42,644 nt of DNA from assembly GCA_020442725.1 (NCBI GenBank), contig JAGRJO010000001.1, forward strand, positions 1-42,644. The letters are read 5' to 3'. Positions 7,987 to 39,447 of this stretch are shown one piece after another. Made by a program: the position numbers and the translations under genes. The first letter of the stretch is position 1, and each line of letters begins with the position of its first letter. This DNA comes from Lysobacterales bacterium (lineage in GTDB: Bacteria; Pseudomonadota; Gammaproteobacteria; Xanthomonadales; Marinicellaceae). Below the pieces are notes generated by a model. The model searched no databases. It had not been told where the DNA came from and worked only from the letters and a program-made list of their open reading frames with translations.

Positions 7987-7997
7987 CGAGAATATTT

Positions 7998-8423: not shown

Positions 8424-8429
8424 CATTTA

Positions 8430-8930
8430 ATGAAACACCTCATAATCCTCAGACATGCGAAATCCAGTTGAAGTGATTTATCACTTTCAGACCATGATCG
8501 CCCATTGAATCAACGCGGAAAGAATTCTGCACCAATTATGGGGCAGCGATTATCGAAGAAATCAATTCAACCTCAAATAGTTCTTTGCAGTACGGCGGCG
8601 CGAGCACAGGCAACTGCTCAAAAAGTATTGGATCAAATTCCGCAAAAATACGAGATTCAATTTCTGAAAGATTTGTATCATGCTTATCCTGATGAAATTC
8701 TAAATATTGTTTCTAAAGTGTCAGACAACTACCAAAACATCATGATAGTTGGTCACAACCCTGGATTAACCGAACTTGCTAATGACTTGATGGGCGAATA
8801 CCATTTTCCGAATATTCCAACAGCCGGGTTGGTTACTTTTGAGTTAGATATTGATAGTTGGAGTGCAATTGTGGATATGCCAAATCCAGCGATATTACTC
8901 GATTATGATTACCCGAAGAAATCAAAATAA
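8430..8930 (+). pseudogene. SixA-like phosphohistidine phosphatase with in-frame TGA (Trp position)
   Basis: Read from the ATG at 8430, the protein is a histidine-phosphatase-superfamily (SixA-type) enzyme. It begins MKHLIILRHAKSS and carries the catalytic RHA motif at residues 8-10. The 14th codon, 8469-8471, is TGA. Reading through, the frame continues without another stop to 8930 (SDLSLSDHDRPLNQRG, VGHNPGLTELANDL, final DYDYPKKSK). SixA relatives usually have Trp after AKSS, so one G-to-A change from TGG explains the stop. A later in-frame start (TTG at 8505) would lose the catalytic His. TGA clearly ends other genes here, for example the DUF885 and TetR genes, so the genetic code is standard. 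It is a recent pseudogene, a readthrough case or a sequence error. Confidence 0.8.
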
Positions 8931-8962
8931 AGCCATTACAAACCTTATAGCTTCCATTTGTT

Positions 8963-10831: not shown

Positions 10832-11089
10832 GTTTGCCCCCGATTAATTGTAAATTATGTCAGGTTTTAAGATAACAAATAAATCTTTCTGAATCTTGAA
10901 TGAAGTTTGATTAAGTTTGATTAAGTTTGAATAGTAGAGCAATATCTAGCGTCGATGAATTAAATTATCGTAATAACCAGCTGATTTTTATCGATTTTTG
11001 AAAAATTATTTTCCAAATAATATGGAAAGAATCAAATAATATTAAATTTCCCCTGCAACCAACATATAGTCTGTCAAGGCTATAGTCAT
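10832..11089. other. AT-rich intergenic region with a short tandem repeat
   Basis: This 258-base gap upstream of the beta-helix gene should hold its promoter on the minus strand, though I could not assign one with confidence. It contains 2.8 copies of the decamer AAGTTTGATT at 10903-10930 and an inverted repeat TTTCCA-N7-TGGAAA. No coding potential or terminator is evident. Confidence 0.4.
10903..10930. repeat. 2.8-copy tandem decamer AAGTTTGATT
   Basis: Units at 10903-10912 and 10913-10922 are identical; the third covers 10923-10930 before diverging. It lies 72-99 bases upstream of the beta-helix start codon, where a copy-number change could alter promoter spacing. Function is unknown. Confidence 0.7.
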
Positions 11090-11479
11090 TTACTTGAAAG
11101 TCTCACGCATAAAAACACTCAGAGCCAAAGCACATTGGTCAGCGAGTTTCTGACCTTCCATTTTATTGGTTTTATCCAAAATCTGTTTTTTCTGTTTTGC
11201 CAGCATATCTTCAAACTTATACCCTTGTGTTTTAGCATCATGATCAGAAAACTTCTTACCAACTTTCAGAGTGTTTTTGTTATTTGCTTTCCAGTTAGCA
11301 ATCAGCATTTCATTCACTTTGGCAAACTCAGGCGATAATTTCTCGCAAGAATACAGCATCTCATTTGCCATATGCGACTGGATATACATGATACCTGCTT
11401 CTTCACTGAAATTTCCAGCTTGGGAAGTCGTGGTAATTATTAAAAATAGTAGAAGTGATAAAGATATGAATTGTTTCAT
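11090..11479 (-). CDS. Small secreted protein of unknown function
   Basis: I do not recognise a family for this 129-aa protein. It has a Sec signal peptide (MKQFISLSLLLFLIITTTSQA, cleavage before GNFSEE). A helical, Lys-rich mature part follows with two cysteines (LYSCEKL and ADQCALAL), placed so that they could form a disulfide in the periplasm. I chose the ATG at 11479 because GGAG lies 5 bases upstream and the signal peptide starts there. An upstream in-frame start would add 28 residues that do not resemble a signal sequence. It is monocistronic and divergent from the orphan gene at 11651. Confidence 0.7.
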   Translation of the reverse strand: MKQFISLSLLLFLIITTTSQAGNFSEEAGIMYIQSHMANEMLYSCEKLSPEFAKVNEMLIANWKANNKNTLKVGKKFSDHDAKTQGYKFEDMLAKQKKQILDKTNKMEGQKLADQCALALSVFMRETFK

Positions 11480-11650
11480 TGAAACTCCGGAACGTGTGTG
11501 TTTATTCTTATTACGGAGTATTGGGGGGATTTGTGACATTATCTTCATAAATATATACAACAATCATAACCTAAACTATGATATATTTAACCCATTAATT
11601 AAGATTACTGAAAAATTCCATCCATTAGACAATACTGATAATTTCGACTT

Positions 11651-12286
11651 ATGATAGATTATGATTATATAGAGTTCTCTGGGGTATTTCACATTCCCCA
11701 AAATAATATACGCTATGTCATAGAAGAACAAAAATGTTTTTTTCTATTTGATGATATTTGCAAAGGCGTTAATTTGGACAATAATCATTCTGATTTTATT
11801 AAAGGCTTATTAGCCAAATTTGAAGACATTTGTGTTGAAGAAGAGATAAATATTGAAGATTCGATTTCATATAATATTAAAAATTATGGTCTCGGTAAAT
11901 TTTTTATTAGTAGTGTAGAGGTTGCAGCTACTATTACTATAGTACAAATTTTAATACAATATTACTTTCTTAATGGTCAAAGAGTATTTTATGAGAAGGA
12001 TGATATCCTTAAATTAATATCCCTAACAAAAAATAGTAATTTTATTGATTCTTTGCTCGATTGTGAAAATAAGAAAATTGAGAATAATTTATTTGAATCA
12101 TTAGTTTTACAATCATTTAAAGAGATGCCTAACTATTTAAAGCAAATAGAGAGTGTCCCAAATATTAATTTTTTACATCAAGTAGTCACTAGGTTATTAC
12201 CCTTCAGCAAAAATATTGAAAGAGATGAAGTACAGAAAAGTTTACTACAAAGAATATTTAAAAATAGAAAAAGACCTGTTTATTAA
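11651..12286 (+). CDS. Hypothetical protein, AT-rich orphan
   Basis: I do not recognise this 211-aa protein. It is predicted to be mostly helical, with an acidic N-terminal half (FEDICVEEEINIEDS) and one hydrophobic stretch around residues 83-107 (VEVAATITIVQILIQYYFL) that could be a membrane or buried helix. The tail is basic (FKNRKRPVY). The coding sequence is visibly richer in A/T than its neighbours, no Shine-Dalgarno precedes the ATG, and a repeat-rich block follows. These traits suggest recently acquired or fast-evolving DNA. It could also be a decaying gene. There is no signal peptide, so it is presumably cytoplasmic. Confidence 0.55.
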   Translation: MIDYDYIEFSGVFHIPQNNIRYVIEEQKCFFLFDDICKGVNLDNNHSDFIKGLLAKFEDICVEEEINIEDSISYNIKNYGLGKFFISSVEVAATITIVQILIQYYFLNGQRVFYEKDDILKLISLTKNSNFIDSLLDCENKKIENNLFESLVLQSFKEMPNYLKQIESVPNINFLHQVVTRLLPFSKNIERDEVQKSLLQRIFKNRKRPVY

Positions 12287-12590
12287 TCTTAATCAATGGG
12301 GCAATAAACCTTTAACTCTCACCGAGATATTTTCGTAAATTTGGAAAAAAGCATGTAAGTCTTTGAACATTGCTTGTAATGTGAGTTTTTACAAACTCCA
12401 AATTTAAGAAAATAGTGAGGGAAGCCAAAGGCCGAGAGTTCGGGGCGTGCTTTTGCGCTCCTTTTGCACGAGCAAAAGGAGCAAAGAAAAGATACTGAAA
12501 TAAATTCAGCATGACCAATGATTGCTGAGATACATTCGACTTCGTGTGCGTTCGCACACTCCGCTCAGTATGACAACACACTATTGAATA
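12287..12590. repeat. Intergenic mosaic of short palindromic repeats
   Basis: This 304-base stretch between convergent genes has no credible gene. From about 12400 it is built of palindromic modules. One is GCTCCTTTTGC-ACGA-GCAAAAGGAGC at 12457-12482 (11-bp perfect arms). Another is CTGAA-ATAAA-TTCAG at 12495-12509. A third is GTGTGCG-TT-CGCACAC at 12544-12559, followed by CTCCGCTCAGTATGACA. The last two resemble dispersed intergenic repeats I know from several marine and soil bacterial genomes. The hairpins may act as transcript ends for the flanking convergent genes. Whether they are multicopy cannot be tested in this window. Confidence 0.65.
12457..12482. terminator. Strong hairpin, possible terminator or REP-like unit
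   Basis: Arms GCTCCTTTTGC (12457-12467) and GCAAAAGGAGC (12472-12482) pair perfectly around a 4-base loop. No long T-run follows on either strand, so it is not a classical intrinsic terminator. It lies between genes ending at 12286 (plus) and 12591 (minus). Confidence 0.4.
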
Positions 12591-14327
12591 TCACAAATTC
12601 TCCCGAATAAATTCCTCAACAATCCCCTCCAATACATTCAAAGGCACAGACCCTTGCGATAGTATCGCATCATGGAAAGTGCGGATGTCGAATTTTTCGC
12701 CCAATTCTTTTTCCGCTTTACTACGCAGTTCCCAGATTTTGATTTCACCGAGTTTGTAGGATAAGGCTTGTGCCGGCCAGCCGATATAACGATCGATTTC
12801 AGTGCGGACATTGTGTTTGGACAGGGCTGTGTTTTCTTCCATCAGTTTGATGGCTTCGTCACGGCTCATGCCCATGGCGTGCATTCCTGTATCCACTACC
12901 AAACGCATAGCGCGCCACATATCGTAGGTCAGGCGACCAAATTCTGAATATGGATCTTGATAAAAACCAACTTCTTTTGCCAGTTTTTCACAGTACAAAC
13001 CCCAGCCTTCGCCATAAGCGGAAATATAACTGTAGCGACGAAAATCAGGTAAAAAGTCCAACTCCTTACTCAAGGCACTTTGCAAGTGATGACCCGGAAC
13101 GGCTTCGTGAAAAGTGAGTGCTTCAAGATTGTATAGTGGCCTCTTCTCCAACGCGTAAGTATTGACCCAATATTGCCCGGGACGAGTGGAATCCAATGGA
13201 GCCGAGGCATATCGACCGGTGGTGTAGTTGGGAGCAATGCTTGCAGGAACCGGATTGACTGTGTAAGGCTGCCTCGGTAGTTTAGTAAATAATTCCGGTA
13301 ATTTGCCATCCATACGCTTGGCAATATAACTGGCTTCTTTGAGAAGTTCTTCCGCTGTTTTGGCATAAAATCGTTCATCAGTTCGTAGAAACTCGAGGAA
13401 TTGAGCAAAACTGCCTTTGAATCCGACTTGTTTTATGACTTCTTCCATCTCGGCGCGGATTCTTTTGACTTCCTGCCAACCGATTTGATGAATTTCCTCA
13501 GGTGTTAATTCCAGCGTGGTGTATTCTTTAATCTGCTGCTGATAGTAGGCTTTGCCATCAGGAAGTGATCTTGCAGCAATATCCTCTCTCGCATTGGGAA
13601 TATACACATTCACCATAAAATCCTTGAAATTCGCGTAAGATGGTTGGATTTGTTGTGAAATGATATCTTTTGCCTGTTTTTGAAACTCTGTGAATGTCTT
13701 TTCATCAATGAACTGTGGTTTGTTTTTCAGTGGACTGAAATAAATCGAATCCTCAACATCATCAACAATATATTTCTGAATAAATTGCGGATAATGCTCA
13801 ATGATAACTTTGGGTTGAGTTCTTCCTTCTTTTAAACCAGCTCGCATATTGTCGATATTCTGCTGCATCACATCGTCCACCTGTGAGAGTTTGGAGAGGT
13901 AATTTTTAAAATCCTTTTCAGTTTTCAGATTGGCATATTGAGCCATAAATGCCAGATTGACATGAAAAGATCCTTCGGAATTGATGGGCATTTGGTATTC
14001 CTTGAAGTCTATATCAGCAATTTCGTCATGTAATTTTTGTGCAAACATATCATAGTTGATTTGTTGTTCAGAACTGAGTTTTGAGCGTTTGATTTTATGC
14101 AAACCTTTCTGTAACTCTTCAAGTTTGGCTTTGACTTGCAAATGATAAGCCTCACTCGCCGATACCAGCTCTCCATCCTTGTTTTCATAACTCAAATCCT
14201 GAATTTCCTGCCAGCCGGACTCCAGAAATTTCAACATTTTTTTATCATATCGAGTATTTCCCGCAATACAAAGTCCGGAAAATAAAAGCAAAAAAATCAT
14301 TAAAAAGCGAAGAGAAAACAGTTTCAT
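12591..14327 (-). CDS. DUF885 family protein, putative secreted metallopeptidase
   Basis: This 578-aa exported protein of the DUF885 family carries the signature HEAVPGHH at residues 407-414. It resembles the HExxH zinc site of gluzincin peptidases and has an inserted Pro-Gly-His-His. A Sec signal (MKLFSLRFLMIFLLLFSGLCIAG) is followed directly by a helical domain. The C-terminal block NVRTEIDRYIGWPAQALSYKLG is the conserved family end (RYI.WPGQA.[ST]Y..G type). I chose the ATG at 14327 because it begins the signal peptide; an in-frame upstream extension would add 15 hydrophilic residues. The stop is TGA, showing that TGA terminates in this genome. Peptidase activity is family inference. No neighbour suggests a substrate. 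Confidence 0.88.
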   Translation of the reverse strand: MKLFSLRFLMIFLLLFSGLCIAGNTRYDKKMLKFLESGWQEIQDLSYENKDGELVSASEAYHLQVKAKLEELQKGLHKIKRSKLSSEQQINYDMFAQKLHDEIADIDFKEYQMPINSEGSFHVNLAFMAQYANLKTEKDFKNYLSKLSQVDDVMQQNIDNMRAGLKEGRTQPKVIIEHYPQFIQKYIVDDVEDSIYFSPLKNKPQFIDEKTFTEFQKQAKDIISQQIQPSYANFKDFMVNVYIPNAREDIAARSLPDGKAYYQQQIKEYTTLELTPEEIHQIGWQEVKRIRAEMEEVIKQVGFKGSFAQFLEFLRTDERFYAKTAEELLKEASYIAKRMDGKLPELFTKLPRQPYTVNPVPASIAPNYTTGRYASAPLDSTRPGQYWVNTYALEKRPLYNLEALTFHEAVPGHHLQSALSKELDFLPDFRRYSYISAYGEGWGLYCEKLAKEVGFYQDPYSEFGRLTYDMWRAMRLVVDTGMHAMGMSRDEAIKLMEENTALSKHNVRTEIDRYIGWPAQALSYKLGEIKIWELRSKAEKELGEKFDIRTFHDAILSQGSVPLNVLEGIVEEFIRENL

Positions 14328-14491
14328 AGAAGTTCCAAAATATTTACTATCAGCTATCATAGCACCATTCAAAATCTAAATAAAAAACTTACTGAAAAAT
14401 TTAAAATTAACCAGAAATCAATAGACTAGAGACATTTATTATCAATTTATGCTATAACTAGCACTGAATTCACGTTCTATTGAGGATTGCT

Positions 14492-14935
14492 ATGAGAATC
14501 ATTATTTTTGTATCACTTTGTTTATTATTCACAACTGCCAATGCCAAGCAGAAATACTATAAATGGACCGATGAAAACGGTAATGTGCATTATTCCGAAA
14601 AAAAACCGGAGAATAAAGAGGCACAGGAATTAAAAATCCGCTCAAAAGCTCCAAAACCACAGGAAACAGTAAGCGAAGAAGCCAGTACAGATAAGGAATT
14701 ACCTCCCGATCAACAAGCTGTTGAAGATTTCAATCGCAATGAACAAGCCAAAGCCAAAGAAGCTCAGGATCAAGCCAATTGTGAGATTGCAAAGAAAAAC
14801 TTGCAAACTTTAGAAAGTCGAAGCCGTGTCAAACGAGTCAACCCGGCAACAGGTGAGGAAATTTATATGGATAACACCGAAGTTGAAAAAATGATTAATG
14901 TGGCTAAACAATCCATCAGAAATTTGTGTAAATAA
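14492..14935 (+). CDS. DUF4124 domain-containing envelope protein
   Basis: This 147-aa exported protein has a signal peptide (MRIIIFVSLCLLFTTANA) followed by the DUF4124 motif KYYKWTDENGNVHYSEKKP. The rest is a charged, Pro/Glu/Lys-rich linker and a short helical end with two Cys (ANCEIA and NLCK). Such proteins are common in gammaproteobacteria and have no established function. The ATG at 14492 has GAGG 6 bases upstream; an in-frame TTG at 14480 is less suitable. The TRAP binding-protein gene begins 4 bases after the stop, so the two are co-transcribed. Confidence 0.85.
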   Translation: MRIIIFVSLCLLFTTANAKQKYYKWTDENGNVHYSEKKPENKEAQELKIRSKAPKPQETVSEEASTDKELPPDQQAVEDFNRNEQAKAKEAQDQANCEIAKKNLQTLESRSRVKRVNPATGEEIYMDNTEVEKMINVAKQSIRNLCK

Positions 14936-14939
14936 AACA

Positions 14940-16037
14940 ATGAAAAGAAGAAATTTAGTCAAAGCTCTTGGCGTGAGTGCTGTTGCAGGAGCGATTTCAG
15001 CTTGTAAACCGAAAGCTCAGGATTGTACGAATTCAACCACAGCTGATACAAAAACCTACAAGTGGAAAATGGTGACTGCATGGCCCAAGAATTTTCCGGG
15101 TTTGGGAACTGGAGCTAATTTTCTGGCAGAAATCATCAATTCCATGAGTGGTGGACGACTGCAAATAACTGTTTATGGAGGTGGTGAGCTTGTTCCACCT
15201 TTGGAAGTTTTTGATGCTGTTTCCAGCGGCACCGCTGAAATGGGACATGCAGGAAGTTATTACTGGAAAGGTAAAGTGCCGGAGGCTCAATTTTTCGGAG
15301 CTGTTCCTTTTGGCATGAACGCACAAGAAATGAACGGCTGGATTTATCACGGTGGTGGTATGGAGTTATGGACAGAACTTTATGAACCGCATAATTTGGT
15401 TCCATTCCCGGTGGGTCATTCCGGCGTGCAAATGGGTGGCTGGTTTAACAAGGAAATCAACACTAAAGACGATTTGAAAGGATTGGTGATGCGAATTCCC
15501 GGGCTTGGCGGTGATGTTCTTGCTCGCGCCGGTGGTTCGCCCAAATTACTACCCGGCTCGGAATTATTCACTTCTTTGCAAACCGGAAATATCGATGCCA
15601 CTGAGTGGGTTGGACCTTATAATGATTTGGCGTTTGGTTTGTATCAAGCGGCAAAATACTACTATTATCCGGGTTGGCACGAACCAACAGCATGTCTAGA
15701 AGGAATTGTTAATAAGCAGGCTTATGATTCCCTGCCTAATGACTTGCAGGAAATTATTCGTATCGCTTGTATGGCTGCCACACAAAATATGCTGGCAGAT
15801 TATACAGCGAAGAATAACACCGCTTTGGAAACCCTCGTCAACGAACATCAAGTTGATCTCCGTAAGTTTCCCGATGAAGTTTTAGAAGAGCTGAAAAAAC
15901 ATGCTCATGATGTTGCTGAAGAGTTAGGTAATCAATCCGAAATGGGCAAAAAGATTTATCAATCTTATAAAACCTTTGCTGAGAAAATCCGAAAATGGTT
16001 GGAAGTATCTGAGAAAGCGTATTTGCAAGCTCGGTAA
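14940..16037 (+). CDS. TRAP transporter solute-binding protein (DctP/TakP-like), Tat lipoprotein
   Basis: This 365-aa extracytoplasmic binding protein belongs to the DctP family, which delivers carboxylates or 2-oxoacids to TRAP transporters. The leader MKRRNLVKALGVSAVAGAISAC has a twin-arginine motif (KRRNLVK) and a lipobox (ISAC), so Tat export and lipid anchoring are both predicted. Family features include WKMVTAWPKNFPGLGTGANF, the Arg-containing segment LVMRIPGLGGDVLARAG and EWVGPYNDLAFGLYQAAKYYYYPGWHEP, close to the TakP subgroup. The ATG lies 4 bases after the DUF4124 stop; the Shine-Dalgarno is weak. No DctQ or DctM membrane subunit is in the window, so the transporter must be elsewhere or the protein works differently. 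Confidence 0.9.
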   Translation: MKRRNLVKALGVSAVAGAISACKPKAQDCTNSTTADTKTYKWKMVTAWPKNFPGLGTGANFLAEIINSMSGGRLQITVYGGGELVPPLEVFDAVSSGTAEMGHAGSYYWKGKVPEAQFFGAVPFGMNAQEMNGWIYHGGGMELWTELYEPHNLVPFPVGHSGVQMGGWFNKEINTKDDLKGLVMRIPGLGGDVLARAGGSPKLLPGSELFTSLQTGNIDATEWVGPYNDLAFGLYQAAKYYYYPGWHEPTACLEGIVNKQAYDSLPNDLQEIIRIACMAATQNMLADYTAKNNTALETLVNEHQVDLRKFPDEVLEELKKHAHDVAEELGNQSEMGKKIYQSYKTFAEKIRKWLEVSEKAYLQAR

Positions 16038-16049
16038 AATTTCTTTTCC

Positions 16050-18395
16050 ATGGAAATTTTCGAACTTAGCCCATTTGTAAAGAATCAGTTTGATAAATAT
16101 CCGGCATTAAATGGAATGTCGAGTAATGAGTTGAATCTGCAATCTGATTGGGATGATTTTCAACGGCAAAATACGCACCTTGATATTTTTTCTCTGTTGC
16201 GAAACTATCGGCAATCACGATTGGCTTTGATTGCCGTTCAGGATTTAAAGCACTTCGATTTACTGAAAACCTTAAAACTCGCCAGTCAATTGGCACGACT
16301 TCTAATTCGCAAGGCTTATGATTACGCACTCACCGAACATGAAGAGAAATTCGGACAAATTATCAATGATGGCAATACTGCCAAACTGATTATTTTTGCT
16401 CTCGGAAAACTCGGAGGCAATGAGCTGAATTATTCTTCGGATGTGGATTTGGTTTTTTGTTACACCGCAAACGGTGAATCCAATGGTCGGAAATGCACTG
16501 ATGCTCAGAGCTATTTTCAGCGCTTGGGACAACGAATTATTCAAATTCTGGAAACAACCACAACTGATGGAATTGTCTATCGGGTAGATATGCGCTTGCG
16601 TCCTTTCGGCAGTGCTTCACCTTTGGTTTGTACCACGGATTATTTAATCCGTTATCTCGAATCCGAAGGCAGAGACTGGGAGCGTTATGCCTGGCTTCGG
16701 GCTTCCTGCATCGCCGGAGATATTGAAAACGGTGAGAAAACCATACAAAGTATTCAACCTTTCATCTATCGTAAATATCTGGATTACAATATTTATGAGT
16801 CCTTACGGCAAATCAAACAGCAAATTATCAGAAAACAGCTTGAAGATTTAGACAATATTAAACTCGGAAAAGGCGGAATCCGCGAAATCGAATTTATTGT
16901 ACAAACCTTGCAACTGACATTTGCCGGCAGAAATCAACAACTTCGCGGCAATGATTTGTGGTTTCAACTTCAGCAGTTGAAGCAATATAAACACCTCAAC
17001 TCTGAGGAATTTGAAAAGCTGTCAGATGGATGGATGTTTCTTCGTCGGTTGGAAAATCTTTGCCAAATCATCAATGACACCAGCACTCATCATTTACCAA
17101 ACGATCAACAAACTCTGGCGCTATCTTTGAATTTCAAAAATACCGATGATTTGTTAAAAGAATTGCGCACTCACCGAGCAAATGTTAACGAGATTTTCCA
17201 ACAATTGTTCTCTGAAAAGAATAACAAACCAACGACAAACAACCCGGAAATTCAAAAAATCAAAGACCAGGTTGCTGAGAAAAATTTTCCGAAATCAATC
17301 AAACATAAAATTTATGATACATGGGATGCAATGTCTCAATTACTGACTCCATTTAACCAACAAGATGAAATCATTGGGCGGTTTCAGAAAATCATCAATG
17401 CCATCAGTAAAAGAAGCAGTTATCTTTCTATGTTGATTGAATCGCCTTTAATTTTGGAAAAATTACTTCATCAAATTTCCCAAAGTCATTATTTTTCAGA
17501 TTCCATCGCCAAAAACCCGATGCTGCTGGAGAGTTTATTTCACACTATTGACAACAATGATTTTCACATTTCTGAGCAATGGGATTTATTAATCAGAAAA
17601 CAGAAATCTCAGGATGAAGAGCAGTTCCATGAGTTGCTTTGTCAGTTCAAGCAAATGATTCAATTTAAAACTGTTTCCGCTTTTTTTGATGAAATCATCA
17701 ATGCTGTTCAAGCCTCAAAAATATTAACAAATCTTGCTGAGTTTATTCTCAAAAATGTGATTGAACAATCATGGCAACAAACACAAAAAAGACTACCTTC
17801 CTCAGTTTGCAATAATGATTTAATAGTAGTTGCTTATGGCTCACTCGCAGTTGGGAATATGCATCTGAACTCCGACTTTGATATTGTCTTTATTTCCCAA
17901 AACGAGTTGCCGGGTGAGGATTATCGTTTTGTCATACGCTGGATAAAACGAATTATCAATATGTTATCGTTGCCAACTTATTATGGCTCACTTTACCAAA
18001 TTGACATGCAATTGCGACCAAACGGAAACTCTGGAACAGCTGTAGTCACCAAATCCGGATTTGAAGATTATCAGTTCAACCATGCATGGCTGTGGGAACA
18101 CGCAGCGTTGATAAAATCCCGGGCTGTTTATGCAACTAACGAACAGAAAATATGGTTTGATAGCATTCGTGAGAAAATAATTAGGCTGAAAAGAGACCCG
18201 AAAGAAGTTGATAAACAACTCAACGAAATGTCAGAAAAACTCAAACTACAAGGCAATAAAAATCATGAAAAAGAATTTGAAGTTTTAGGGAATATTTTAA
18301 AAAAGGCTCACAATCAGCCGGAGATTATCAATACTGTTTTTGAACAATCTGATAACAGTATCAAATTTGAAGCTTCGATAAATATCCATGAATAA
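16050..18395 (+). CDS. glnE: Glutamine-synthetase adenylyltransferase/deadenylylase, C-terminally shortened
   Basis: This bifunctional regulator of glutamine synthetase has two nucleotidyltransferase domains. The N-terminal deadenylylase domain is canonical: GKLGGNELNYSSDVDLVF with D131 and D133, VYRVDMRLRPFG, and KGGIREIEFIVQ. The C-terminal adenylylase domain keeps D609 and D611 (LNSDFDIVF) and YQIDMQLRPNG. However, the glycine-rich loop is YGSLAVGN instead of YGKLGG. The protein also ends about 50 residues after the WEHQAL-like motif (WEHAALIKSRAVY). The last 100 or so residues of E. coli GlnE, including GGITDIEF, are missing, so length is 781 aa against about 946. mnmC overlaps the end, so no remnant lies downstream. 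The start codon lies in the loop of an 8-bp hairpin (16036-16060) without a Shine-Dalgarno. Confidence 0.88.
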   Translation: MEIFELSPFVKNQFDKYPALNGMSSNELNLQSDWDDFQRQNTHLDIFSLLRNYRQSRLALIAVQDLKHFDLLKTLKLASQLARLLIRKAYDYALTEHEEKFGQIINDGNTAKLIIFALGKLGGNELNYSSDVDLVFCYTANGESNGRKCTDAQSYFQRLGQRIIQILETTTTDGIVYRVDMRLRPFGSASPLVCTTDYLIRYLESEGRDWERYAWLRASCIAGDIENGEKTIQSIQPFIYRKYLDYNIYESLRQIKQQIIRKQLEDLDNIKLGKGGIREIEFIVQTLQLTFAGRNQQLRGNDLWFQLQQLKQYKHLNSEEFEKLSDGWMFLRRLENLCQIINDTSTHHLPNDQQTLALSLNFKNTDDLLKELRTHRANVNEIFQQLFSEKNNKPTTNNPEIQKIKDQVAEKNFPKSIKHKIYDTWDAMSQLLTPFNQQDEIIGRFQKIINAISKRSSYLSMLIESPLILEKLLHQISQSHYFSDSIAKNPMLLESLFHTIDNNDFHISEQWDLLIRKQKSQDEEQFHELLCQFKQMIQFKTVSAFFDEIINAVQASKILTNLAEFILKNVIEQSWQQTQKRLPSSVCNNDLIVVAYGSLAVGNMHLNSDFDIVFISQNELPGEDYRFVIRWIKRIINMLSLPTYYGSLYQIDMQLRPNGNSGTAVVTKSGFEDYQFNHAWLWEHAALIKSRAVYATNEQKIWFDSIREKIIRLKRDPKEVDKQLNEMSEKLKLQGNKNHEKEFEVLGNILKKAHNQPEIINTVFEQSDNSIKFEASINIHE

Positions 18396-20341: not shown

Positions 20342-22855
20342 TTACTCAAAACCATTTTTAAAAATACGATCATCATCAGGGCTGTCATATTCATAAGCAC
20401 CAAGATCGCGAATATTATTGACAGCAAAACCTCGTTGATCTTGGTTTGTTGAGTTGGCATCACCCAAGTCAATGGCTTCGCTTCCATCCAGTAAAGCATG
20501 TGTCTTTACACAGTTTCCATTTGCAAAAGGTGTGACGCATTCATTGTCCTCCAAACCACCCAAGGTTGTAGGTGTTAAAATCGTGGCTAACATTCCGTTA
20601 CATCCTCCGGATGCGTTATCTGACATGTTGTTGCTACCGCTTTGAGTGCCTCCGTTGTTATAGCAATCATCCCCGCTTGTCGTTGCTGAATTACTGTGAA
20701 ACAAAGAATTGTTTAGACTTGAAATCACTCCGGTTAAACTGTTTGATACAGCACCACCATTATTTCCTGAATTCCCCGAAAAAGTAACATTGAGAATCTC
20801 GGTGAGTGTTCCGGTATTTGCGAACCCTCCGCCAAGATTATCAACCGAGTTTCCTGACACAGTGCTGTTGCTTAATTTGGTTAAAGTTCCGGCATTGAAC
20901 CCGGCACCACCGGCATTTGCCTGATTATTAAAAAATGTTGTTTTCCTGATTGCAGTAGCCAGTCCTTCATTATAAACAGCCCCTCCTCGATGAGCTTTAT
21001 TGGTTAGGAACGCTGTTTTTGCGATGACCAAATCGCCTGAGTTTAATAGGGCTCCACCATAAAAAGTTTCAGTGTTTGAATTTCCATCCACACAGCCACG
21101 TTTAAGAACAAGATTACTCAAGTCCAGATCACCGGCAGATCCCACTCTAAGCAGTCTAAACTCGGAATCATTCGTTATTCCGTCATTGTTACAACCCAGG
21201 AAACTATCTCTTTCCAGAATATAGCCCATGCCATCAATAATCACAGAACTATTTATCGAGTTGGTTCCGGTATGACCATAAGTTGCATCATTATCCTCAA
21301 CACGTTTTAAAACTATATCATTCCCAAAAATGATAGTATCAGTTGTTGCTGTAAAGATATTGGCACAATAAATTGCCTGATTCAGTTCATGAGCAGAGGT
21401 TACTGTTTTACTAAAATCGGAAGTCACATCCATCCCTAGTGCAAGACATCGTACTGCTGGGGACATATACTCAAAAGCACCAATATCCCGTGTACCTAAA
21501 TTACCAAACCCTCTTTGATCATTAGCTGTTCCCGATACGGCTTCATCAACGGCTTCACTATCCATGTTCAAAGCATGCGTTTTGGTACAACTTCCATCGG
21601 CAGTCGGGACAACACAACCATTATCAGCAATGGGATTTACCGTTGATGTTGACAACAAGGTTGGTAATTGACCCGGACAACCGCCAAAGTTATTATCAGA
21701 CATATTATTTGTTCCGGTAAATATATTTCCCGGAGTGCTGTAACAATCATCCCCATTATCGGCGGAATTATTGTGGAAAAGTGAATTGTTTAAGGTGATA
21801 GCATTCGTAACACTGTTGTAAATTGCTCCTCCATCCGATGCCAGACCTCCAAAGTTTCCAAAAAATGATGAATTGTTGATATTGTCTATCGAGCCAATAT
21901 TAGAAATAGCACCACCATTATCATCACCTTCATTATTTGAAAAAGTGCTGTTATTAATTGCAACAATGGTTCCTGCATTACGAATTCCTCCTCCATACAA
22001 TGCTTCATTGTTATAGAAAGTGCTATTATTCAATGCATTGATTATCCCTCTGTTCATTAATCCTGAACCATAAATAGCACCATTTCTTGAAATCGTGTTG
22101 TTATCAAATAATGCAACGGTTGCATTACCCTGATAAATTCCACCACCTTCAGAATCTGTACTGCCAGTACTATTATCTGAGACAATATTATTACTGAACA
22201 TTGTAATTGAACCGAAGTTTTGTATTCCTCCACCATCAGCAAAAGCATAATTATCTGAGATGATATTATTGTTGACAACTGGTAATGGACCCGAACTGTA
22301 AATACCTCCTCCGACATTTGCTGAGCTGAATTTGACTTCACTATTTTCTATCGACAAAGTCCCTTCCGATTTAATAGCTCCACCCTTAAATTTATTTATT
22401 GAACCGCCATTTCCGTTGACACAACCATGCTTTAACCTAATGTTATTCAGACTCAATGTTCCTAAATCGCTGACTCTGAATATCCTGAATTCCGATGCAT
22501 CTGAAACACTGTCATCATTACACGCAAGTGAACTATCTCTTTGAACAGTATATCCATTCCCGTTAATTGTAATTTCACTCACAACAGCCGGTGTCCCTGT
22601 TCCACCATGAGTGACACTACTTTCATACCTTTCAGTCAGAACAACACCCACAGTCAATTCAATGGTATCGCTCCCTGCATCACCAGCCGGGCAATCACCA
22701 ACAGCAGTGTCTGTGTTTGCCGCTTCGATTGCTTCGGTGATGGAGCACAATCCGTTCGAATTGATAGCTCCGCCTGCTGAGTCATCAACAGTAATCGTTG
22801 CAGAAAATGCAGTGGATGAAACCAGCAGTAAAAAATATATAAACTTATAATTCAT
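20342..22855 (-). CDS. Secreted beta-helix protein, CSLREA type, two similar halves, IFxNGF tag
   Basis: This 837-aa exported protein has a signal peptide (MNYKFIYFLLLVSSTAFSA) followed by a CSLREA-like motif (NGLCSITEAIEAAN). Rungs of parallel beta-helix follow, rich in GGG and NNSTFxNN. The first half ends in a choice-of-anchor-Q-like block (GTANDQRGFGNLGTRDIGAFEY). A second half then repeats the plan (SAHELNQAIYCAN, RRLLRV-type segment, beta-helix, DQRGFAVNNIRDLGAYEY). The C-terminus is DDRIFKNGFE. It is a tandem paralogue of the gene at 22953-25409, and the bases just before both ATGs are similar. No enzymatic residues are recognisable. A surface or biofilm role is inference. Confidence 0.87.
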   Translation of the reverse strand: MNYKFIYFLLLVSSTAFSATITVDDSAGGAINSNGLCSITEAIEAANTDTAVGDCPAGDAGSDTIELTVGVVLTERYESSVTHGGTGTPAVVSEITINGNGYTVQRDSSLACNDDSVSDASEFRIFRVSDLGTLSLNNIRLKHGCVNGNGGSINKFKGGAIKSEGTLSIENSEVKFSSANVGGGIYSSGPLPVVNNNIISDNYAFADGGGIQNFGSITMFSNNIVSDNSTGSTDSEGGGIYQGNATVALFDNNTISRNGAIYGSGLMNRGIINALNNSTFYNNEALYGGGIRNAGTIVAINNSTFSNNEGDDNGGAISNIGSIDNINNSSFFGNFGGLASDGGAIYNSVTNAITLNNSLFHNNSADNGDDCYSTPGNIFTGTNNMSDNNFGGCPGQLPTLLSTSTVNPIADNGCVVPTADGSCTKTHALNMDSEAVDEAVSGTANDQRGFGNLGTRDIGAFEYMSPAVRCLALGMDVTSDFSKTVTSAHELNQAIYCANIFTATTDTIIFGNDIVLKRVEDNDATYGHTGTNSINSSVIIDGMGYILERDSFLGCNNDGITNDSEFRLLRVGSAGDLDLSNLVLKRGCVDGNSNTETFYGGALLNSGDLVIAKTAFLTNKAHRGGAVYNEGLATAIRKTTFFNNQANAGGAGFNAGTLTKLSNSTVSGNSVDNLGGGFANTGTLTEILNVTFSGNSGNNGGAVSNSLTGVISSLNNSLFHSNSATTSGDDCYNNGGTQSGSNNMSDNASGGCNGMLATILTPTTLGGLEDNECVTPFANGNCVKTHALLDGSEAIDLGDANSTNQDQRGFAVNNIRDLGAYEYDSPDDDRIFKNGFE

Positions 22856-22952
22856 AGTTCTGACCGTTTAAAAATTCATTGTATTATAAAAATTCTAAAA
22901 AATTCAAACCTGACTTAATTCTGAAAAAGTTATGAATTTTTTATTAGAAATC

Positions 22953-25409
22953 TTACAATTCAAACCCATTTGTAAAAATGACATCATTGATTCCTTCATA
23001 TTCAAACGCTCCGATATCACGAATACCATTAGCAAGAAAACTTCTTTGATCATGAGTTGTTGCATTCACATCTCCTTCATCAATAGCTTCACTCCCAGCC
23101 AATAAGGCATGAGTCTGAATACAGTTACCGTTGGCTAAAGGTGTAGAACAACCATTGTCTTCAAGAATCCCCAAAGTAGAAGGTGTCAATGTTGTCAAAC
23201 GTAATCCGGGACAACCTCCTGCAATATTGTCAGACATGTTATTGCTACCGCTGAATGTACTGCCATCGTCAAAGCAATCATCATTACCTGAACTGCTTGA
23301 GTTATTGTGAAATAAGGAGTTTTCCAATGATGAAATCGTACCGCTCAATACATTTGCAATGGCTCCTCCGGCTGAACTATTGCCATTTGCGGAAAATGTA
23401 TTATTTTTGATGCTGTCAATGGTTCCTGAATTCCCTACTGCTCCACCCGCAGCATTGCCGGAATCATTTCCGGAAAAGGTATTATTTCTCATTGTTGTTA
23501 CAGCATTATCATTAAACATTGCTCCTCCGCCGGATTCAGAGTTATTACTATAAAAAGTACTGTTTCTGAGAGTTGACAAAGTTCCGGTATTATAAATCCC
23601 TGCTCCGCGATTCGCTTTGTTGAATAAGATTGCAGTCTTTGCCATCGCTAGCGAACCTGAATTGTAGATAGCGCCTCCATAGAACCAGTTCTCGTTGAAA
23701 GCTCCATTGACACAACCTTTCTTCAACACTATGTTTTTCAGCTGCAAATCTCCGCTACTATCCACTCTTAGTAATCTGAATTCAGAATCATTTTGAATAT
23801 CATCATTATTACAAGCCAGCGAATTATCTCTTTCCAAACTGTGTCCCGCTCCATCAATAATCATTGGAGATTTCACGGCACGGGTTCCGGTATGACCATA
23901 AGTGACATCATCTTCTATAAGTTGGCTTAGGACAATATCGGCTGTGAAATTAATCGTGTCAGTAGTCGATGAATTCAGATTCGCACAAAAAATAGATTGA
24001 TTGAATTCATGAGCAGAAGCCACGGACTTGCTAAAAACTCCTGAAGTATCCATTCCTAAATTCAGACAACGCTCTTCGCCCGTCAGGAATTCAAATGCTC
24101 CAATATCCCGCATGCCATCATGCGAAAACCCCCTCTGATCGAATGCCGTTCCACTGACAGCTGCATCAATTGCCTCACTGCCAGCAAGTAAGGCATGAGT
24201 TCCGACACACCTATCACCCGCTAGCTGGGTGACACAGCCATTATCTGCCAAAGAACCAACAGTTGATGCTGAAAGAGCTGTACCTAATAACCCGGGACAA
24301 CCTCCTGACAAATTATCGGACATATTGTTATTACTTGTGACTATACTTCCACTATTCTCACAATCTTCACCTCCCGAGCCACTCACGTTATTCACAAATA
24401 ATGAGTTGGCAAACAACTGGATAACACCTCCGGTCAGATTGCTGATTGCGCCACCGGCTAAGATTCCTGATGAATTATTTGAGAAGGTTATATTCTTCAT
24501 AAGAACAATATCGCTCGTATTTGAGATTCCACCACCAGATGTTGAACCTATATTTCCTGAAAAAGTACTGTTGTATAGGTTTGTTATAGTACCGTTAAAG
24601 TCATTTCTAATACAACCTCCATAGAATGAAGTATTATTTGTAAAAACGCTCTGGCTTATATTGGTAATAGATGCTGTATTCCTTATACAACCTCCATTGT
24701 TACCTGCTTGGTTATTATAAAACCTGCTATTATTGATCTGTGATATCACTCCGGATGCATGGTGAATAGCTCCTCCACCTGTTTCGGCGTAATTGGACGA
24801 AAAGTCACTATCTCTAATTTCCATGTCACCTGTGTTATATACACCACCGCCAAATTTTGCCTGATTTTCTGATATTTTACTTCTGGTGATTTCGAGGATT
24901 CCATTATCATTTAATATGCTGCCACCATAAAATTTGAATAGACTTGTATCCGCGTTCACGCAACCATATTTCAAAGTAATATCCTGCAAATATAATTCGC
25001 CACTTGGTGAGACCCGCATAAGCCTGAATTCTGTAGCATCAGAAACTGAATCTTCATTACAAGCCAGTGAGTTATCTCGCTCCAGTGTATGTCCCATGCC
25101 ATCAATTGTAATTATTGAAGTGATGCCCGGCGTTCCGGTTCGTCCTGAGTCACCTGGACTGCCGGTGTCAATATTCTCGTACTGCTCCGTTAGAACAATA
25201 TTAACACTCAACTCAATAGTATCATTTCCCGAATCACCTGCCGGACAACTATCCACAGCAGAATCTGTATTAGCAGCAACAATAGCCTCAGTAATCGAAC
25301 ACAACCCGTTAGAGTTGATAGAACCGCCGACAGTATCATCAACAATAATTGTTGCAGAAAAGATAATTGGTGAAACCAATAATAATGAAAGAAGAATTTT
25401 GAATTTCAT
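22953..25409 (-). CDS. Secreted beta-helix protein, CSLREA type, two similar halves, IFxNGFEL tag
   Basis: This 818-aa exported protein is a close paralogue of the preceding gene. The signal peptide is MKFKILLSLLLVSPIIFSA. A CSLREA-like NGLCSITEAIVAAN follows, then a beta-helix with rungs of the type NGGCIRN, GGAISN and NNTFSGN. The first half ends in FDQRGFSHDGMRDIGAFEF. The second half starts at CLNLGMDTSGVFSKSVASAHEF and ends with DQRSFLANGIRDIGAFEYE. The tail INDVIFTNGFEL carries the shared tag plus one Leu. Many Cys pairs (for example DDCFDDG and EDCENSG) suggest disulfides. The ATG at 25409 follows AACAGTCAAAACC, similar to AACGGTCAGAACT before its paralogue, which points to a duplication that included the leader. 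Confidence 0.87.
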   Translation of the reverse strand: MKFKILLSLLLVSPIIFSATIIVDDTVGGSINSNGLCSITEAIVAANTDSAVDSCPAGDSGNDTIELSVNIVLTEQYENIDTGSPGDSGRTGTPGITSIITIDGMGHTLERDNSLACNEDSVSDATEFRLMRVSPSGELYLQDITLKYGCVNADTSLFKFYGGSILNDNGILEITRSKISENQAKFGGGVYNTGDMEIRDSDFSSNYAETGGGAIHHASGVISQINNSRFYNNQAGNNGGCIRNTASITNISQSVFTNNTSFYGGCIRNDFNGTITNLYNSTFSGNIGSTSGGGISNTSDIVLMKNITFSNNSSGILAGGAISNLTGGVIQLFANSLFVNNVSGSGGEDCENSGSIVTSNNNMSDNLSGGCPGLLGTALSASTVGSLADNGCVTQLAGDRCVGTHALLAGSEAIDAAVSGTAFDQRGFSHDGMRDIGAFEFLTGEERCLNLGMDTSGVFSKSVASAHEFNQSIFCANLNSSTTDTINFTADIVLSQLIEDDVTYGHTGTRAVKSPMIIDGAGHSLERDNSLACNNDDIQNDSEFRLLRVDSSGDLQLKNIVLKKGCVNGAFNENWFYGGAIYNSGSLAMAKTAILFNKANRGAGIYNTGTLSTLRNSTFYSNNSESGGGAMFNDNAVTTMRNNTFSGNDSGNAAGGAVGNSGTIDSIKNNTFSANGNSSAGGAIANVLSGTISSLENSLFHNNSSSSGNDDCFDDGSTFSGSNNMSDNIAGGCPGLRLTTLTPSTLGILEDNGCSTPLANGNCIQTHALLAGSEAIDEGDVNATTHDQRSFLANGIRDIGAFEYEGINDVIFTNGFEL

Positions 25410-37000: not shown

Positions 37001-37059
37001 AAATTCTCTATCCGCTGGATCGCTGGTTGAGAAAATGGTATGAAGTTGGGAAGATTTAA
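34030..37059 (+). CDS. RND efflux permease, HAE1/AcrB-like
   Basis: This complete 1009-aa RND permease has TM1 at MYKFAINRPITILMAVMALIIFGL, two large periplasmic loops and twelve predicted membrane helices. The TM4 proton-relay motif is GIFIDDAIVVIENISKK, with the Asp-Asp pair intact, unlike the Asp-Asn of the pump at the left edge. The second TM cluster includes IGIILLLGMVGKNAILVVDFANRA. The gene is last in the TetR-adaptor-permease operon, and no outer-membrane factor follows. It exports hydrophobic compounds, solvents or lipids by family inference; the substrate is not readable. No terminator is obvious before the convergent iscA-like gene. Confidence 0.95.
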   Translation: MYKFAINRPITILMAVMALIIFGLKSYTTMPLALFPNVDFPIITIKTVYPGADAKTVESKITDKIEEAVSGINQIDKLFSTSYAGVSFVVVHFELERDLEAAANDVREKIGGVVLPNDSEAPLVQKISTAGEAISVFISSKSGDLSTLMQLVDEKIKPKLQRIPNVGDVDMDGYRDREIRIMVDPYLLNKYKISSSELQTIIASANFQSSSGKSINNLQELIIKFQGDAKSIQTLRDIEIRPGLRLQDIAQVYDGLSDEVSISTFNGKQGVMLNLMKIPGTNVIEIINEAKRIFPNLKETAGDDFELTLIKDQSDKILQGVNQVKFDLIFGAILAIVIVFTFLRNITATIVSALAIPTSIIGTFAIINYLGYDLNKLTLIGLTLAIGIFIDDAIVVIENISKKMESGVESFKATYEGVHEIAFSLLAISAMLLAVFIPIAFMSGMVGKFFNAFAITVASGVVISYLVAIMLIPSVSARVLQHKESKFHAVTEKYLKKLDNGYVAILKPLIRFKYITVLVTFALLILSGKIFNVGMDFVPTEDNSEFQITAKAEVGTSLGEMQRKMQPIIELIKKDENVEYYALSIGYTDSNESHKGLLYIKLKPVIERSIGQVEIINQYREKLDFIKDMTLAVEKIPPINTGTSNAPVQIVITGDSLDKLKEISNEVSQMLGGFEGAVDIDSDYQDGKPEITISILRHNSARLGITAAQIATLLSSNYSSDIEISNYEEKGREYDITLRFDDQNRADMESLKKLQIRSANGEYVFLDGLINIEQGSSIASVNRFDRERKVMISSNLKEVPLNSIVEQVEEKLPEILPKGYNYTFSGDVERMKETAVSFSTAVGLAVILIYLILAALYESLVQPIIIMITMPLAFTGVITALGLSGNNFSLFVMIGIILLLGMVGKNAILVVDFANRAIKQGKTIDEALIQAGEKRLRPILMTTFAMVGAMIPLAFGSGAGHELNSPVGLSIIGGLISSTILALLVVPAFYKILYPLDRWLRKWYEVGKI

Positions 37060-37071
37060 GTATTTTGAGAA

Positions 37072-37398
37072 TTAATTAACTGTAAAACTCTCACCACAAC
37101 CACACTCACCAGTGGCTTTAGGATTGTGATAAACAAAAACGTGATTGATACCTTGTTGTTCAAAATCAATTTCTGTTCCGTCAATCAATTCCAAAGCCTC
37201 TTGTGAAACAATCAAATCAACTCCTTTATCCTGAAAAACCACCTCATCATCAGAAATTTGATGAGCAATTTCCACTTCATAACCCCAACCGGAACATCCT
37301 GTTTTAACCACATTCACGCGAAAACCCACGGATTCAGAATCTTTTTGCAGGAATTTTACAATTCGCTCCGCTGCTGCTTGAGTTAAATGTAATGCCAT
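37072..37398 (-). CDS. iscA: IscA/HesB family iron-sulfur carrier
   Basis: This 108-aa A-type carrier delivers Fe-S clusters to apoproteins. The three ligating cysteines are C35 in KTGCSGWGYE, and C99 and C101 in GECGCGESF, matching the IscA/ErpA/SufA pattern. The tail GECGCGESFTVN and the SGWGYEVE loop are closest to IscA. It is a stand-alone gene with no iscS, iscU or suf neighbours. ErpA is the alternative, which only wider phylogeny would settle. The ATG at 37398 opens the conserved MALHLTQAAAERI. Confidence 0.88.
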   Translation of the reverse strand: MALHLTQAAAERIVKFLQKDSESVGFRVNVVKTGCSGWGYEVEIAHQISDDEVVFQDKGVDLIVSQEALELIDGTEIDFEQQGINHVFVYHNPKATGECGCGESFTVN

Positions 37399-37771
37399 AT
37401 TTTCAATTTAAAATTTATAAAGCCGATATTATAATTTGATTTTCAAAATACTTCCTGTATTTATAATAAAAATCTACTGATTTTGAAGCTGTGACATTTT
37501 CTATCACATAAAATTTCGAGGTTGCAACCTTGATTTTACTCCATTATCTTCTATTAATTAAATCCATTTAAAATCAACATGTTAAATCATTAGTTTTTTA
37601 AAGCTTTTTCTTGCCAAAAAATACGCAAAAAAATTGTAAATAAAATGATATCGCAGATGAAATTTTACTTTAATTATTTTTTTTTTAAGAGTATAAGGCG
37701 AAATTGATTTGGCTGAAATAATTCCAATTCACAGAAAGGGTATTTTTACTAACATTTTATGAGAAAACATC
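37399..37771. other. Long AT-rich divergent intergenic region
   Basis: This 373-base gap lies between the divergent iscA-like and SET-domain genes and should contain promoters for both. It holds a perfect palindrome AGGTTGCAACCT (37519-37530), poly-A/T tracts around 37620-37690 and no open frame of note. A TATAAT on the minus strand near 37428 lacks a convincing -35. An eight-codon frame starting at 37759 overlaps the SET start out of frame and is probably chance. Confidence 0.45.
37519..37530. promoter_or_regulatory. Perfect 12-bp palindrome AGGTTGCAACCT
   Basis: It lies about 120 bases from the iscA start and 240 bases from the SET start, in otherwise featureless AT-rich DNA. It could be an operator for a dimeric regulator. 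No known consensus is matched with confidence. Confidence 0.35.
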
Positions 37772-38242
37772 ATGTTATATCCTAAAGAATACGGAGACGA
37801 CCCATGGTTTCCACAAGCAAAAGACTTTAAAGTCGTTGATAAAAATGGTATCGAAGGCAAAGGAGTATTTTGTTATAAACCTTTTAAAAAAGGAGAATTA
37901 CTAGCCAAAATACATGGGGAAGTAACTCAAGAAATCACTCAACACACTTTACAAATTGATGAAACCAATCACTTGTTGGATTTATACTTTGTCGGATATC
38001 TGCTGCATTCCTGCAATCCGAATGTCATTGTCGATATGAAAAACCGCACTGTAAGAGCCTTACGCCAAATCAAAGCGAATAGTTTTTTGTATATGGATTA
38101 TGCGAGTACTGAAGATGTTCTTTACAAACAGTTTCATTGTTCCTGTGGTTCAGCCAACTGTCGTGGTTTAATTCTTGGCAGAAAAGAGATGCCTTTGACG
38201 AATGAAACCTTATCATCCTTGAAAAAACTGAGCGGACCCTAG
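37772..38242 (+). CDS. Small SET-domain protein, putative lysine methyltransferase
   Basis: This 156-aa protein consists of little more than a SET domain with a post-SET zinc site. Visible motifs are GIEGKGVF (residues 26-33, SAM-binding strand), LLHSCNPN (78-84, the NHxCxPN-type motif), YMDYAST around Y110 (catalytic Tyr region) and a post-SET C123-x-C125-x4-C130 in HCSCGSANCRG. SET enzymes transfer methyl groups from SAM to lysine side chains. Bacterial examples are uncommon and mostly uncharacterised. The start has no strong Shine-Dalgarno. The PLP decarboxylase gene begins 2 bases after the stop, so they form a tight pair. The substrate is unknown: a protein lysine or a small amine are both possible. 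Confidence 0.87.
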   Translation: MLYPKEYGDDPWFPQAKDFKVVDKNGIEGKGVFCYKPFKKGELLAKIHGEVTQEITQHTLQIDETNHLLDLYFVGYLLHSCNPNVIVDMKNRTVRALRQIKANSFLYMDYASTEDVLYKQFHCSCGSANCRGLILGRKEMPLTNETLSSLKKLSGP

Positions 38243-38244
38243 CT

Positions 38245-39447
38245 ATGAAATCCATGCAATGGTGGGAAAGAAATGACCTGCACTATCACAACAACAACTT
38301 GCAATTTGCTGAGAGACAAGTTCAGCAACTGGCAAACCAACTGGAAACACCCTGTTTTATTTACAATTCCAAAAGAGTCATCAATAATCTGCAAAGGCTG
38401 AAATCAGCTCTTAACGAGAATGGTTTTAAAAACAAGCACAAAATCTTTTACGCAATGAAAGCGAATCGTTTTGCTCCTTTGCTGACATTTTTAAAAACAT
38501 CAGGGCTTTGCGGAATTGATGCTTGTTCTCCGGCAGAAGCCGATTTAGCAATTTCGTGTGGTTTTGGTGCCAATGAAATTTCTTATACAGGAAGCAGTTT
38601 ATCCAAAGCGGACTTGCAATCATTATCAATGAAATCAGGACTCCTGATGAATTGCGACAGCTTGCACAGCATTGATAGTTGGGGACAACTAAAGCCGAAT
38701 AGCGAGATTGGTATTCGTATCAATCCAGCCATCGGAATTTGCCGTACCAATAATGAAAAACTGCAATATTGCGGTGAAAATATCACCAAATTCGGAATCT
38801 ATCGGGAACAATTTGAAAAAGCTCTGCAAATTGCCAAAAAACATGGGCTTAAAATCACTCGACTACATTTCCACACCGGTTGCGGTTATCTCGATGCCGA
38901 ACTGGAACAATTATCCAACGTGCTAAAAGCCAGCCATTGGTTTATTGAACAATTACCGGACTTGGATATGATAAATATTGGTGGAGGTTTGGGCGTTCCT
39001 CATACTGAAACCGAAAAATCACTCGATTTAAACAAATGGGCAGCCACTATTCATAAAAACCTGGGTCAATTTGATATCACTTTGGCTGTTGAACCGGGTG
39101 AATACATTGCCAAGGATGCCGGATTATTGCTATTGGAAACCACTTATCTGGAATACAAAAAGGACAAACTTTTTCTCGGTGTCAATGCCGGATTCAATCT
39201 GGCTCCGGAACCGGCTTATTACGACATGCCTTTTCTTCCTGTAGCAATGTCAACCAACGGAATCACTCAAAAACTCAGCATTGTCGGCAATATTAACGAA
39301 GCTCTGGATGTCTGGTATGAAAATTTGGAGTTTACAGTATCCGATGATATGACGCATATTGCAATCATCAACGCCGGAGCTTATTCATCATCCATGTCCT
39401 CCAATCATTGTATGCGTGGGAAGTTTAGCGAGTATTTGTTGTTTTAA
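38245..39447 (+). CDS. Divergent fold-III PLP decarboxylase (LysA/ODC-like)
   Basis: This 400-aa enzyme has the alanine-racemase-like barrel of diaminopimelate and ornithine decarboxylases. The PLP lysine is K72 in YAMKANRF. The His stacking motif is HFHTGCGYLD, the glycine loop is INIGGGLGVPH and the C-terminal Tyr motif is NAGAYSSSMSS. Two normally conserved sites differ. EPGR reads EPGE (residues 283-286), and the CES-D motif at the substrate end reads NEALD (351-355). It is therefore unlikely to be ordinary LysA. Start ATG 38245 is 2 bases after the SET stop; an alternative ATG lies at 38254. A decarboxylase acting on a modified basic amino acid is an inference from pairing with the SET enzyme. 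Confidence 0.82.
   Translation: MKSMQWWERNDLHYHNNNLQFAERQVQQLANQLETPCFIYNSKRVINNLQRLKSALNENGFKNKHKIFYAMKANRFAPLLTFLKTSGLCGIDACSPAEADLAISCGFGANEISYTGSSLSKADLQSLSMKSGLLMNCDSLHSIDSWGQLKPNSEIGIRINPAIGICRTNNEKLQYCGENITKFGIYREQFEKALQIAKKHGLKITRLHFHTGCGYLDAELEQLSNVLKASHWFIEQLPDLDMINIGGGLGVPHTETEKSLDLNKWAATIHKNLGQFDITLAVEPGEYIAKDAGLLLLETTYLEYKKDKLFLGVNAGFNLAPEPAYYDMPFLPVAMSTNGITQKLSIVGNINEALDVWYENLEFTVSDDMTHIAIINAGAYSSSMSSNHCMRGKFSEYLLF

Follow-up and report, generated by a model that had tools for sequence, protein, structure and literature searches.

The window, that is, the whole stretch of 42,644 nucleotides that was analysed, contains an ORF encoding a small protein with SET and post-SET domains and, after a gap of 2 bp, a second ORF encoding a fold-III decarboxylase (Table 1). 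The initial annotation had described this arrangement and Pfam agrees with it: the SET domain of the first product scored 29.4 bits (cut-off 22.4), and in the second product Orn_Arg_deC_N was found with 116 bits and Orn_DAP_Arg_deC, the C-terminal sheet domain, with 27 bits. Structure predictions of both proteins, made from shallow alignments, had mean pLDDT values of 35 and 58 and were set aside.

Table 1. Coordinates of the two genes and of the codons discussed in the text (positions in the window).
Feature	Position	Strand	Basis
SET plus post-SET protein, predicted BurB-like methionine S-methyltransferase	37772..38242	+	156 aa; similarity to BurB 9L4T, pocket residues, tree
Codon of Y110 (equivalent of BurB Tyr124, between Met and SAM)	38099..38101	+	Alignment to BurB
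Fold-III PLP decarboxylase, BurI/SMM-decarboxylase-like	38245..39447	+	400 aa; Pfam, lysA model score, alignment, tree
Codon of E286, in place of the EPGR arginine (T. maritima Arg249)	39100..39102	+	Alignment
Codon of E322, in place of T. maritima Arg285	39208..39210	+	Alignment
Codons of N351-E352 (LysA Cys314 replaced by Asn; Glu315 retained)	39295..39300	+	Alignment

The flanking genes have no obvious tie to the pair. From the appearance of their sequences, we take the upstream neighbours to be an RND efflux pump and a small CGCG-tailed iron-sulfur-type protein, and the downstream neighbour, on the opposite strand, is presumably a type I restriction HsdR-like gene. Unlike in a malleicyprol-type cluster, no NRPS-PKS genes were found among the ORFs of the window. 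A phage origin of the SET protein was also considered and rejected, as no phage record matches it. Elsewhere in the window (20342–25409) there are two long adjoining proteins of 837 and 818 aa, similar to each other, which look like repetitive surface beta-helix proteins. Comparison of the region 37023–38654 with a sibling MAG (L004) gave 99.6–100% identity over more than 5 kb and then 96–98%, falling to 76–80% at the end of the SET gene and on into the decarboxylase gene; this drop could reflect a recombination tract, a strain mixture or an assembly join.

Relationship of the SET protein to BurB

When the SET protein was compared with all PDB chains, the best match was BurB (9L4T; E 3.6e-33, 118 bits); the next match reached 29 bits, and histone methyltransferases appeared at about 1e-5. 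The alignment to BurB is ungapped, with 59 of 133 residues identical (44%). BurB of Burkholderia thailandensis converts free methionine into S-methylmethionine (SMM), which starts DMSP synthesis (PMC12542666; PMC7496086), and is inactive on MTHB and MMPA (PMC12542666). Like the window protein, BurB (9L4T, 9L4V; PMC12542666) is a small SET plus post-SET protein with no other domains, paired genetically with an SMM-decarboxylase-type enzyme. The window pair differs in lying outside any NRPS-PKS cluster and in having the decarboxylase gene directly after the SET gene.

The published residue numbers of BurB agree with the sequence of the PDB chain, and the mapping of its active site onto the window protein is therefore sound. 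His72, Thr73, His93 and Tyr124 of BurB are retained as H58, T59, H79 and Y110, respectively, and Val130 is also retained. Tyr124 sits between Met and SAM, and the Y124A mutant is nearly inactive (PMC12542666). However, Arg133 and His138, both of which contact SAM in BurB (PMC12542666), are replaced by Lys119 and Ser124, and further replacements affect Ser88 (Val), Arg42 (Glu), Arg70 (Thr), Ala44 (Lys) and Met132 (Tyr). Since the contacts of BurB to methionine, that of Arg70 included, are main-chain contacts, and the S88A mutant retains more than 60% of the activity (PMC12542666), the changes in the pocket of the window protein neither exclude nor prove activity. In a tree with 29 other SET proteins, the window protein fell into one group with BurB and the bur-like relatives of BurB (support 89/89), and ten other bacterial SET proteins lay outside this group. 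The SET protein of the window is a BurB homologue and a predicted methionine S-methyltransferase.

The decarboxylase, its pocket and its partner genes

The best NCBIfam model for the decarboxylase was lysA (TIGR01048), with 207.6 bits, under the cut-off of 297.9. Its identity was 46–66% with the decarboxylases encoded beside SET genes in other species, 45–47% with the two plasmid-borne ones next to MmtN-type genes, and about 27% with LysA. In our alignments, a homologue encoded in the bur-like cluster of Eleftheria terrae stood in for BurI as the representative of its clade; the window decarboxylase (P0002) shares 44.6% identity with this homologue. This value is close to the 48% between BurI and the SMM decarboxylase of S. 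mobaraensis (PMC7496086) and was for this reason counted in favour of kinship with the SMM decarboxylases. In the tree of decarboxylases, the SET-adjacent, the MmtN-adjacent and the bur-like E. terrae members formed one clade (support 100/100) separate from LysA and ODC, inside which the SET-paired enzymes were not a single group. BurI and the S. mobaraensis enzyme (PMC7496086; PMC12542666) are, like the window protein, fold-III PLP decarboxylases, and the E. terrae homologue shares its clade; the window enzyme is about 45% identical to that homologue and to the MmtN-adjacent ones. It belongs to the BurI-type clade, with decarboxylation of SMM as its predicted activity.

To describe the pocket, the window protein was aligned with 13 related decarboxylases and the less closely related G789, as well as with three LysA of solved structure and two paralogues encoded in its own genome, with a numbering that reproduces the residue names of PMC8277567. 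LysA of T. maritima uses Arg249 and Arg285 to bind the distal carboxylate of DAP and Glu315 of the other subunit to bind its distal amino group (PMC8277567). The window decarboxylase has the motifs EPGE (E286) and N351-E352-A353-L354-D355, as the initial annotation had noted. That annotation had tied the EPGR arginine to the PLP phosphate; the equivalent Arg249 of T. maritima contacts the distal substrate carboxylate instead (PMC8277567). The loss of the second distal-carboxylate arginine (Arg285), now E322, had been overlooked.

These replacements form a signature present in 14 proteins: R249 is E or D, R285 is E, C314 is N and S316 is A. Position 285 is E in all 14 and R in LysA, position 249 is R in the three solved LysA and in the LysA of the genome itself, and Asn-Glu-Ala occupies positions 314–316 in 14 of 14 members. 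Lys46, Asp65, His179, Glu246, Glu315 and Tyr343 (LysA numbering) are retained in all of them. The pocket of G789 differs from the signature, with T, N, N and S at the four positions. As the two arginines holding the carboxylate are now acidic, the pocket would suit a substrate ending in a sulfonium cation, and we infer that the acidic residues accommodate such a side chain. Among the papers searched, no analysis of the pocket of an SMM decarboxylase was found beyond the Bur papers. Two further loci, which weigh against the reading proposed below, carry a decarboxylase relative with no SET gene within 1.5 kb on each side: L062 (G800; 42% identity), with the full acidic signature, and L063 (G789; 32%), with T and N in the pocket.

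The genes found beside related decarboxylases were also informative. On a plasmid of Rhizobium lusitanum, a decarboxylase gene of this kind (45%) is followed by the gene for a class-I methyltransferase. This methyltransferase has a single PDB match, 7VVV (E 3.9e-105), the structure of MmtN; PKS genes come after the pair. A Rhodovulum plasmid has, in a row, an aminotransferase, a decarboxylase (47%) and an MmtN-like sequence. In the latter (L047, Rhodovulum sp. P5, 8938–11168) the decarboxylase frame extends into the MmtN-like sequence, the remainder of which is annotated as a separate hypothetical protein, and either a frameshift or an annotation error could explain this. The MmtN/DMSP methylation pathway (7VVV; PMC9135737) shares with the window pair the predicted first reaction, from Met to SMM, and the type of partner decarboxylase, but MmtN belongs to the class-I methyltransferases and is unrelated to SET proteins. 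The strongest evidence for SMM as the substrate of the decarboxylase is its occurrence beside two unrelated enzymes that make SMM. In E. terrae, the SET protein, an aminotransferase, an aminobutyraldehyde-type dehydrogenase and the decarboxylase are encoded in one NRPS-PKS cluster, with the decarboxylase about 18 kb from the SET gene. This bur-like cluster (L049, plasmid positions 178000–215000) also contains FkbH, and its host is a soil betaproteobacterium outside Burkholderia. A search for MmtN in the cassette genomes tested, run with no positive control, was empty.

The exchange of partners bears on two other readings of the pair. The initial annotation had suggested that the SET enzyme acts on the decarboxylase itself. 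SET domains are best known for protein-lysine methylation and the homologues of the window protein are publicly annotated as protein-lysine methyltransferases; however, the nearest characterised relative, BurB, acts on free methionine, and a need for lysine methylation would leave unexplained that the decarboxylase clade is paired with the unrelated MmtN on two plasmids. From the homology with BurB and the exchange with MmtN, we judged it highly improbable that the SET protein modifies or regulates the decarboxylase, or any other protein, by lysine methylation.

The second reading is that the decarboxylase has a different basic or sulfur amino acid as its substrate (lysine, ornithine, DAP or an N-methylated form), in line with the lysine-like substrate proposed initially. 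The enzyme does share with LysA of T. maritima, H. pylori and E. coli the fold, also that of ODC, the catalytic Lys, His, Glu and Tyr and the glutamate for the distal amino group, and lysA is its best model. Nevertheless, it falls under the cut-off of that model, both distal-carboxylate arginine positions are acidic across the clade and Cys314 has become Asn, which indicates that it is not a normal LysA. In addition, the genome has a separate LysA-type domain, in an 860-aa frame of contig C77 with both arginines present, and an ODC-like protein on contig C400, so that the role of LysA need not fall to the window enzyme. Moreover, the genes of the clade travel with SMM-forming enzymes. Any substrate of this other kind is very unlikely, and lysine, ornithine and DAP were rejected on the basis of the pocket residues, the lysA cut-off and the separate LysA- and ODC-type genes; homology points to a relative of BurI and of the SMM decarboxylases, next to a relative of BurB.

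Distribution of the pair and the predicted pathway

A sample of 369 gammaproteobacterial genomes was probed with both proteins. The SET probe gave five strong matches (E ≤ 3e-42), the decarboxylase probe identified the same five genomes, and in all of them the genes were adjacent and in the same order. Ten more genomes of the class had weaker SET matches, and the flanks of these matches, up to 1.5 kb in either direction, contained no such decarboxylase. In the family of the window genome the pair was found in G776, G771 and G754, and in a close relative (G747) it is split over contigs; the sequences of L004, L005 and L006, from the named collection, correspond to those of G747, G771 and G776. 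The distribution is uneven: within the genus and family, most genomes are without the pair. The pair also occurs in an alphaproteobacterium-type genome of another class (G609, from a wider sample) and, with a 4-bp overlap, on a plasmid of Sphingomonas paeninsulae. Wherever the start codon was clear, the intergenic gaps were small or negative. The distances of the SET protein and the decarboxylase correlate (r 0.71, a value reached in none of 2000 permutations). Thus the adjacency is not confined to the window genome, and its recurrence side by side in distantly related genomes is beyond chance. The initial suggestion of a small pathway with an altered substrate pocket is supported, and this two-gene pathway is conserved.

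Two neighbourhoods were recorded apart from this. At L024 (G256, 7742–14171) and L046 (S. paeninsulae, 7471–17188) there are pilus chaperone-usher and spore-coat-U-like genes near the pair, which could be coincidental. On plasmid p7 of Rhizobium bangladeshense (L050, 8995–9864) the gene for a BurB-like SET protein (43.5%) comes after one for an asparagine-synthase-like protein and before one for a small S-adenosylmethionine decarboxylase-like protein; RuvC, ribonucleotide reductase and ParB-like genes are found in the same stretch. Here, SET-made sulfonium amino acids may be put to a different use.

It is very probable that the two closely spaced genes form an operon that covers the first two steps of the methionine-methylation route to DMSP. 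In the first step, the SET enzyme would methylate free L-methionine at its sulfur, with SAM as the donor, yielding SMM. The decarboxylase would form a PLP aldimine with SMM, hold its dimethylsulfonium end in the pocket with the two acidified arginine positions and, by release of CO2, give 3-dimethylsulfoniopropylamine (DMSP-amine). Both activities and the role of the acidic residues are predictions from sequence. Transamination and oxidation to DMSP would probably be carried out by general aminotransferases and aldehyde dehydrogenases, which are proposed for these last steps because the dedicated BurD and BurE are not encoded beside the pair.

Relatives of BurD and BurE were sought with the E. 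terrae proteins as queries. No close homologue was found in the window genome (74.5% complete; best matches 32% and 29%) or in nine cassette-bearing relatives (at most 42% and 41%); for comparison, the aminotransferases of Rhodovulum and Eleftheria are 63% identical. Nor were genes of this type found beside any of the stand-alone cassettes examined, so the dedicated enzymes are probably missing. The cassette genomes tested do carry general class-III aminotransferases and aldehyde dehydrogenases. In B. thailandensis, deletion of burI leads to accumulation of SMM, and burB and burI are essential for the product (PMC7496086). The burD and burE genes are not, since their deletions still yield a DMSP-derived product in reduced amount, which the authors credit to housekeeping enzymes (PMC7496086). 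Given that burD and burE are dispensable in that host, a two-gene cassette may still give DMSP, and we infer that DMSP is the probable, if by no means assured, end product; that DMSP-amine or some other compound is formed instead has a smaller but considerable chance.

One version of the latter is that the pair makes SMM and DMSP-amine and that the amine or a conjugate of it is itself the end product, as a cationic osmolyte, a polyamine-like compound or a signal, with no DMSP. The lack of BurD/BurE-type genes beside the examined cassettes and of close homologues elsewhere in the tested genomes speaks for it, but the product still formed by the deletion strains and the general enzymes present in these genomes speak against it, and we consider it rather unlikely. 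It is likewise unlikely that the pair is a widespread two-gene module ending in 3-dimethylsulfoniopropylamine or a derivative and not in DMSP.

The initial annotation had known of no described system of this form, yet the reactions from Met to SMM and its decarboxylation have been published (PMC7496086; PMC12542666). BurB had been found only in some Burkholderia according to a 2022 paper (PMC9135737), and a review of June 2026 describes the BurB-type enzyme as reported exclusively from B. thailandensis and likely of little environmental weight (PMC13360808). A search mostly outside the subscription literature gave no stand-alone SET-decarboxylase operon in other proteobacteria, and nothing on a bacterial SET-decarboxylase pair beyond the Bur papers. 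The chemistry of BurB and BurI is already known; what is new is the stand-alone two-gene form outside Burkholderia, without BurD, BurE or NRPS genes nearby.

The inverted charge of the pocket is a testable rule for distinguishing SMM decarboxylases from LysA. The pair would also give a gene marker, at present annotated as a protein-lysine methyltransferase plus a diaminopimelate decarboxylase. Should the module ending in the amine be true, it would represent a class of sulfonium metabolites so far unrecognised in environmental proteobacteria. Finally, cassettes in several gammaproteobacterial families and in the Alphaproteobacteria would widen the range of candidate producers of DMSP or sulfonium amines.
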